A stretch of 64,000 nt of DNA from assembly GCA_017307505.1 (NCBI GenBank), contig JAFKEE010000029.1, positions 124,001 to 188,000 on the forward strand, in the 5' to 3' direction. The position numbers were made by a program, and so were the translations under genes. This DNA is from Acidobacteriota bacterium (GTDB taxonomy: Bacteria; Acidobacteriota; Terriglobia; Bryobacterales; Bryobacteraceae). The first letter of the stretch is position 1, and each line of letters begins with the position of its first letter. Below, piece by piece: positions 37,136-38,814 of this stretch. Under the pieces are notes generated by a model. That model did not search any database. It saw only the letters and a program-made list of their open reading frames with translations, and was not told where the DNA came from.

Positions 37136-37831
37136 TTAGTGTAATTGAGTTCCCAAAGCGCGCAGAATCGAATCCGCGGCCGCCGCCGGTTGAGCGGCGC
37201 GCGTGATTTCCCGGCCTACTACCAGATAACTCGCGCCCGCTTCCATGGCCGAGGCCGGGGTCGCCACCCGTTTCTGGTCGCCGTGATCGGCCCCGGCGGA
37301 CCTCACGCCCGGCACCACCAGCAGTTTCTGCGGCGGAACCAGCGCGCGCAACCGCTGCACTTCCAGCGGAGAACACACCAGGCCGTCGGCCCCCGCGTCG
37401 ACAGCTTTGCCGGCCAGCCACTCCACCTGTTGCGCCATGGTGCGACCCGTGACGCCGAGGTCGTCGAGATCCGACTGGTCGAAACTGGTGAGCACGGTCA
37501 CCGCGAGAATCCGCAGATTCGTTCCGGCCGCCGCCTCGCGGGCCGCCCGGATCACCTGCGGACTGGAATGCACGGTCAACAGGCTGGCGCCCAGCGCCGC
37601 CACGCGCGCCGCCGCCCGTTTGACAGTCTCGTGGATGTCGAACATCTTCAGGTCCACGAACACCTGTTTGCGCCGCGCCACGATCTCGCGCACCACCGCC
37701 GGCCCTTCCGCCGTGAAAAGCTCCAGTCCGACCTTATAGAAATCGACCGTCGTCGAAAGCCGGTCGACCAGGGAGAGAGCCTCCGCGGCATTCGGCAAAT
37801 CGAGGGCAACAATAATAGGGTTGTAGTTCAT
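37136..37831 (-). CDS. pyrF: Orotidine 5'-phosphate decarboxylase
   Basis: Final step of UMP synthesis. The 231-residue length fits the short bacterial type. Seen: IIVALDLPN with the first substrate Asp, FYKVGLELF, the catalytic tetrad region FVDLKMFDIHETV (Asp-x-Lys-x-x-Asp; the usual IPNT is IHET here), GADGLVCSPLE, and VVPGVRSAGADHGDQKRVATP for phosphate binding. Its ATG overlaps the selD stop by 4 bp. The ATG at 37831 gives the conserved N-terminus. Confidence 0.95.
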   Translation of the reverse strand: MNYNPIIVALDLPNAAEALSLVDRLSTTVDFYKVGLELFTAEGPAVVREIVARRKQVFVDLKMFDIHETVKRAAARVAALGASLLTVHSSPQVIRAAREAAAGTNLRILAVTVLTSFDQSDLDDLGVTGRTMAQQVEWLAGKAVDAGADGLVCSPLEVQRLRALVPPQKLLVVPGVRSAGADHGDQKRVATPASAMEAGASYLVVGREITRAAQPAAAADSILRALGTQLH

Positions 37832-38814
37832 AAAACGTGAATGGGCTTCTCGCCCCGGTCCAATACCCGGCCAATGATGCGTCCGGCGGGCCGCAGCGAG
37901 GCCTGTTGCGGCGATTGCGACAACAGCAGTCCGCCCGAGGTCTGCGGATCGTAGAGCAGCGCCTCCACTTCCGGCCGGACGCCTTCCCTTACCAGGACAC
38001 ACGAGGAAGCAAAGGCCCGGTTGTTATTCAGCCCGCCCGGCACCGCCCCGGCGGCGGCATACTCCAATGCCCCGGGCAGAAACTCCAGCGCCGCCGAATC
38101 GATCTCCAGCGTGACCTTGCTGGCCAGCGCCATCTCGCGGGCGTGGCCCATCAGCCCGAAGCCCGTGATGTCCGTACACCCGTTGGCCTCGGTGTCGACC
38201 CGGTTCAGACGCAGCATGGACGCAATGGAGGCCGCCACATGTTCTTCGCTCGCCAGCCCGCGCTTCAGCGCCGTCGAGATGACGCCCGTGCCGAGGGCCT
38301 TGGTGAGGACGAGAACATCGCCCGGCCGCGCGCCGGCGTTGGTCCAGATGCGGTCCGGATGCACCGTGCCTGTGACCGCATAGCCAAATTTGATCTCGTC
38401 GTCGTTCACGCTATGCCCGCCCACCACGGCGCATTCCGCCTCGATCATCTTCTCCGCGCCGCCCTTCAAAATCGCTTCCAGGTCTTCCAGATCGCCCTTG
38501 CCCGGGTAGCACAGCACCGACAGCGCGGTCACCGGCCGCCCGCCCATCGCGAACACATCACTCAGCGCGTTAGCCGCCGCGATGGCGCCGTAAGTATAAG
38601 GGTCGTCGACAATTGGCGTGAAAAAGTCCACCGTTTGCACCAGGGCACACTCCGGGCTGAGCTTGTAGACGCCGGCATCGTCCGACGTATCAAACCCCAC
38701 CAGAACGTTAGAATTGCGCAGGCGCGGAACGCCTGGCAGTACCTGGTCCAAAACCTTTGGACTGAGCTTGGACGCTCAACCCGCGGCTTTGACGTGTGCG
38801 GTTAACTTTTTCAT
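37828..38814 (-). CDS. selD: Selenide, water dikinase SelD with in-frame UGA (selenocysteine) at the active site
   Basis: Makes selenophosphate from selenide and ATP, the selenium donor for selenocysteine and selenouridine. From ATG 38814 the frame reads MKKLTAHVKAAG, then TGA (38776-38778, residue 13), then ASKLSPKVLDQVLPG and the full SelD body. This places UGA exactly where SelD has its catalytic Cys or Sec, with the essential Lys three residues later. Further motifs: GFDTSDDAGVYKL, VVGGHSVNDDEIKFGYA and DPQTSGGLLL. A start at the TTG 38751 would delete the catalytic residues and is rejected. Total 328 residues. It leads the operon with pyrF (4-bp overlap). No selA, selB or selC is in the window, so the decoding machinery must be elsewhere. 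Confidence 0.9.
38746..38762 (-). promoter_or_regulatory. Bacterial SECIS-like stem-loop in selD
   Basis: In the mRNA, GUCCAAA and UUUGGAC form a perfect 7-bp stem with a GGU loop, about 20 nt downstream of the UGA codon. Bacterial SECIS elements are small coding-region hairpins with a G in the first two loop positions 16-37 nt after UGA, so position and loop both fit. It would recruit SelB-Sec-tRNA. Confidence 0.7.

Follow-up and report, generated by a model that had tools for sequence, protein, structure and literature searches.

The minus strand of the window (the whole stretch of 64,000 nucleotides analysed here) carries selD, the gene for selenide, water dikinase (selenophosphate synthetase), immediately upstream of pyrF (Table 1). 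The selD frame opens with an ATG at 38814, contains an in-frame TGA as its thirteenth codon and closes with a second TGA at 37830-37828. When the first TGA is read as selenocysteine (Sec), the product is MKKLTAHVKAAG-U-ASKLSPKVLDQVL..., with a length of 328 residues, and residues 3-304 match the equivalog model TIGR00476 at 355.4 bits (cut-off 125); the constituent domains PF00586 (AIRS) and PF02769 (AIRS_C) are recognized at 91.8 and 45.3 bits, respectively. Sec was scored as Cys both in this profile match and in the alignment with the solved SelD structure 3u0o, in which, as counted from the printed alignment, Sec13 and Lys16 stand opposite Cys17 and Lys20. We take the Cys or Sec at position 13 to be the catalytic residue of SelD, and Lys16 to be the catalytic Lys of its N-terminal loop.

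The open reading frame obtained with translation table 11 begins at TTG 38751, 21 codons after ATG 38814, and leaves the catalytic loop out, exactly as an earlier note on this DNA had claimed. The same note had proposed that selD is a selenoprotein gene with UGA at the catalytic position, a view with which the protein family, the alignment of the 328-residue reading (UGA opposite the loop Cys) and the conservation of the codon all agree. A standard ORF call, which begins the gene at TTG 38751, cuts off the active site; selD should be annotated as a selenoprotein gene. Translation would most likely start at ATG 38814, close to which no clear Shine-Dalgarno sequence was seen by eye. At the other end of the gene, the pyrF ATG overlaps the selD stop within an ATGA (window positions 37828-37831), an arrangement that may couple the translation of the two genes.

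Table 1. Features at the selD locus (window positions).
Feature	Position	Strand	Remarks
selD, selenide, water dikinase (selenophosphate synthetase)	37828..38814	(-)	328 residues with UGA read as Sec; TIGR00476, AIRS + AIRS_C
Codon 13, in-frame UGA at the catalytic Sec/Cys site	38776..38778	(-)	TGA or Cys codon across family genomes
Lys16 codon, three residues after Sec13	38767..38769	(-)	opposite Lys20 of 3u0o
Bacterial SECIS-type hairpin	38746..38762	(-)	7-bp stem, GGU loop at 38755-38753; pairing, conservation, covariation
pyrF (orotidine 5'-phosphate decarboxylase)	37136..37831	(-)	PF00215, 182.7 bits; neighbour, outside the recoding

The UGA codon and the downstream hairpin among relatives

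The bacterial family was sampled with 150 genomes, 147 of which have a SelD protein match, and codon 13 was read in the 129 whose match exceeds 400 bits and covers this residue (a few of these matches end early at the C-terminus). The 21 uncounted genomes comprise 18 with SelD fragments or weak matches only and 3 without any; in three of the uncounted genomes (G056, G009 and G069), the fragment is N-terminal and contains a single TGA, which is likewise outside the count. Across the 129 genomes, codon 13 is TGA in 108, TGC in 17 and TGT in 4, and never anything else. A second set, made of 30 family loci and the best 80 named loci (some of them from Chloroflexota, Bacillota and Deltaproteobacteria, and some from genomes that are also in the family sample), has TGA at 101 of 110 loci and a Cys codon at the remaining 9.

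Any single in-frame stop might be a sequencing mistake or a newly arisen nonsense mutation in a pseudogene. Yet the TGA is conserved across separate assemblies, including those of the close relatives G145 and G100 (93% and 90% identical), and its presence at the same codon in 108 of the 129 family genomes means that it is not a sequencing error; we regard this explanation as vanishingly improbable. The earlier note had held that Cys codons in all close relatives, together with a sequencing error here, would speak against its reading, and the family presents a different picture. Initiation at TTG 38751 is precisely what a mechanical ORF finder puts out, and would yield a SelD-like ATPase that lacks the catalytic loop, with the upstream TGA as an ordinary stop. 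However, the 110 printed rows, those with a Cys codon among them, keep a similar stretch in frame before this codon (KLTAHVKAAG here), the TGA alternates only with Cys codons, the 21 family Cys genes read straight through the same place, and the TTG itself falls within the 3' arm of the downstream hairpin, which makes such a start extremely improbable.

The codon that directly precedes the UGA (window 38779-38781) is GGT in 107 of the 108 family Sec genes; in the 21 family Cys genes, the codon before the Cys codon is GGC in 12 cases and GGA in 5. Outside the family, bases other than GGT precede the UGA.

The hairpin has the sequence GTCCAAA-GGT-TTTGGAC (38762-38746), with the stem starting 13 nt and the loop 20 nt past the UGA. 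The 7-bp stem and GGU loop are as previously described, and the distance of about 20 nt formerly given for the stem holds for the loop but not for the stem. A G in the apical loop and a position just 3' of the UGA are what we take to be the criteria for a bacterial SECIS element (bSECISearch rules). Comparable stems are frequent by chance: under a rule of at least 7 pairs (G-U allowed), a loop of 3-8 and a location within 48 nt after a TGA, they follow 91 of the 708 TGA triplets on the plus strand of the window and 174 of the 935 on the minus strand (265/1643 in total). A single stem is therefore unremarkable, and weak evidence by itself; it is conservation that is decisive. Judged by pair counts in a fixed register with G-U allowed, all 108 family TGA genes form 6-7 of the 7 pairs (7 pairs in 72 genes, 6 in 36), as against 3 of the 21 Cys genes; the other 18 Cys genes keep 2 to 5.

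Covariation was assessed on 95 distinct sequences from 101 TGA loci. In comparison with 500 shuffles, in which relatedness was not kept, more cells are paired (89.0% vs 80.1%), more are changed on both sides (73 vs 27.4) and the covariation score is higher (0.326 vs 0.179), none of the 500 shuffles reaching any of the three observed values. Two further measures are weaker: both-side changes occur in 4 of the 7 pairs, which 75 of the 500 shuffles reach and one slid control exceeds with 5, and there are 11 further pair types, which 11 of the 500 shuffles reach. With the 3' arm displaced by one column, pairing is down to 58% and 50%. The two pairs adjacent to the loop alternate between A-U and G-C among lineages (one of them also C-G), while the innermost pair is unpaired in 26 of the 95 rows, by eye including family rows with AAAGTTG, and the outermost in 11 of the 95, by eye mostly rows from outside the Acidobacteriota in which the stem is seemingly shifted.

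A covariance model (R1) combines 27 Acidobacteriota rows, hand-picked from the 95, with the sequence of the window itself. Its search of the genome, in which 150 of 6279 first-look candidates were scored, returned selD at 64.7 bits and a next match at 18.1 bits (E 0.12). Because the window's own locus is inside the model, the 64.7-bit match is not independent evidence, and because the model is SelD-specific and 150 of the 6279 candidates were scored, the search is hardly informative on other selenoproteins. In sequence, the hairpin is typical of its lineage.

Decoding machinery and selenium use

The window lies within contig C3 of a 9.39 Mb genome in 75 contigs (G000). The window has no Rfam match at the gathering threshold, in agreement with the earlier observation that it contains nothing else for Sec decoding. 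The earlier note had named a lack of selA, selB and selC in the genome as a refutation of its reading, and all three are present on other contigs: the best matches are SelA on C67 (494 bits, cut-off 268), SelB on C56 (357 bits, cut-off 242) and tRNA-Sec on C67 (70.9 bits, cut-off 47), the last being called tRNA-SeC with anticodon TCA by ARAGORN. A second match to the tRNA-Sec model, just above the cut-off, is a tRNA-Ser according to ARAGORN. There is also a second SelA-profile match above the Pfam cut-off (L002, G000:C1:10897-11655; 48.4 bits, query 2-267), which is probably another PLP enzyme.

Misreading of UGA happens in other settings, and the codon might in principle be read here as a different residue (Cys or Trp) or by a suppressor. 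No support for this was found, the hairpin is kept together with UGA and lost in 18 of the 21 Cys genes, and SelA, SelB and a UCA tRNA-Sec are all present, so that decoding as anything other than Sec seems highly improbable. We propose, with a probability of roughly 0.97, that selD encodes a selenophosphate synthetase with a catalytic Sec in its N-terminal loop (AAG-U-ASKLSP). The nearest named loci suggest that the bacterium is an acidobacterium of Solibacter/Bryobacterales kinship. The frame, the family, the conservation of codon and hairpin, the decay of the hairpin in most Cys versions and the presence of selA, selB and selC are read from the sequence; that Sec is actually inserted and that SelD is active as an enzyme we infer from what is known of the pathway. 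SelB with Sec-tRNA-Sec (UCA anticodon) would bind the GGU-loop hairpin just downstream of the UGA and insert Sec at this codon. SelD would make selenophosphate from selenide and ATP, and SelA would use it to form Sec on tRNA-Sec; as its selenophosphate would feed this synthesis, SelD would contribute to the synthesis of the residue in its own active site.

Within the family, SelA exceeds its cut-off in 96 of the 108 Sec-SelD genomes, 18 of the 21 Cys-SelD genomes and 10 of the 21 genomes left uncounted. Among the 12 Sec-SelD genomes without SelA above the cut-off, SelB is above its own in all 8 that were searched for it. Of the other four, G006 and G059 have SelA pieces below the cut-off at contig ends (best 217 and 220 bits), and G131 and G143 have a UCA tRNA-Sec. 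The search for tRNA-Sec covered 13 genomes, with 150 candidates scored in each and ARAGORN run on the best match; this was a tRNA-Sec in six (G143, G073, G112, G131, G030 and G040) and another tRNA in seven, yet all seven have Sec-SelD and SelB above the cut-off, and their tRNA-Sec gap would reflect incomplete assembly. Three of the four sampled genomes of one genus (G112, G134 and G148) have Sec-SelD and SelB without any SelA match. We considered and rejected them as an exception lacking SelA: SelB is above the cut-off in all three and tRNA-Sec is present in G112, so missing pieces of assembly are the likely reason for the absence of SelA, although tRNA-Sec was not confirmed in G134 and G148. 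Among the Cys-SelD genomes searched for SelB, G030 has it above the cut-off and G040 has a partial match of 195 bits, below it; in G037 and G024, two genomes without SelD, no SelB above the cut-off was found.

The selenoprotein families searched besides SelD were FdhA, SelW/T/H and CMD. In the window's genome, the FdhA profile has 15 matches, none of them with an internal stop and none above the cut-off (best 599 vs 666 bits), and across 9 genomes from the genus no match to the SelW/T/H profiles exceeded the cut-off. These results first suggested that SelD might be the only selenoprotein, in a self-serving loop, an idea that was dropped on account of a TGA-containing CMD gene. This gene of the CMD/AhpD family (L195:3899-4543, plus strand, on G000:C47) contains a CPFU motif in which the U is an in-frame TGA, kept in G145 (L196) and G047 (L197), that is, in 3 of the 9 genomes of the genus, and a hairpin with a GGUC loop is predicted 17 nt after the UGA. 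Read through, the protein matches CMD PF02627 (37.8 bits, cut-off 23) and TIGR01926 (peroxidase-related enzyme; 86.6 bits, cut-off 81.8), and falls far below the cut-off of NF041238, the AhpD-related (seleno)protein family (37.8 vs 175). AhpD-like selenoproteins are already known (Zhang et al. 2006, PMC1794560). Judging by its sequence, the CPFU protein is probably a second selenoprotein of the genome, and SelD is therefore probably not alone. A CMD row of G150 with a TGA was excluded; it sits at the edge of a contig, and what it shows seems to be a gene ending in the usual way with an unrelated frame behind it. A scan for TGA read-through over the window and 56 kb around selA, selC and selB, filtered on length, GC3, hairpin and nearby residues, gave 10 rows; by eye, none but selD seemed genuine.

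With respect to the Sec-containing SelD proteins of other bacteria nothing of substance differs, the family, the Sec loop, the Lys three residues on, the in-gene SECIS directly downstream and SelA/SelB/SelC all being the same; the Cys-containing SelD of the solved 347-residue chain 3u0o belongs to the same family, with Cys there and Sec here. FdhA and SelD have been described as the most widespread bacterial selenoproteins (PMC1794560; similarly PMC13188914). Zhang et al. (2006, PMC1794560) noted SelD as a single selenoprotein in species that contain YbbB, whereas the present genome has a probable second selenoprotein and no selenouridine synthase (YbbB/SelU; best match 21.3 bits vs a cut-off of 219.75); the same authors found the selenouridine trait to be absent in Acidobacteria. 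It has also been suggested that SelD may help to maintain the Sec trait where Sec-containing FdhA is lacking (PMC1794560), and the present genome resembles that case, an internal stop occurring in 0 of its 15 FdhA-profile matches. For Acidobacteria, a table of the 2006 paper lists 3 selenoprotein families and 4 selenoproteins (PMC1794560). Our literature search found no paper title on selenoproteins of Solibacter or Acidobacteria, though such papers may still exist. The finding of a Sec-SelD here is correct but ordinary, as many bacteria are known to use UGA in selD and the recoding mechanism is textbook knowledge; what our analysis adds is the distribution within one family, the repeated Sec/Cys changes with Ala/Gly and the probable second selenoprotein.

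Changes between Sec and Cys within the family

A quick tree was made from the 129 SelD proteins with two residues masked, the Sec/Cys and the one two before it; many of its forks are weakly supported. The best topology requires 9 changes of Sec/Cys state, or 11 when 11 outgroup rows are added. All 108 Sec proteins have Ala at residue 11 (window 38782-38784), two before the Sec/Cys, and Gly occupies this site in 20 of the 21 Cys proteins, the sole Cys-SelD with Ala being that of G030. In five independent pairs on well-supported (starred) branches, Cys is accompanied by Gly in an average of 4.7, and the reverse does not occur (sign test, median p 0.0625, five pairs being unable to reach 0.05). 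In a wider set (L050-L129), Sec is found with Ala in 62 cases, Ser in 7 and Gly in 2, and Cys with Gly in 5 and Ala in 4.

It may be that the conversion of Sec to Cys in SelD is coupled, in this acidobacterial family, to a change from Ala to Gly two residues upstream, a tentative suggestion to which we give somewhat under even odds; the small number of supported pairs and the looser rule outside the family count against it. Such coupling could arise if the Cys enzyme needed a more flexible loop, or if the Sec gene needed those nucleotides before the UGA.

The three Cys genes that keep 6 or 7 pairs of the hairpin belong to G140 (L231), G064 (L279) and G002 (L256), and their good hairpins are perhaps leftovers of a Sec past, from a recent Sec-to-Cys conversion. 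Within the family, the Sec and Cys versions of selD form a natural series, a few of the Cys genes having what look like leftover hairpins, and such a series lets the loss of Sec and the changes that accompany it be studied. Further Cys-SelD genes with a good hairpin are found at L073 and L078.
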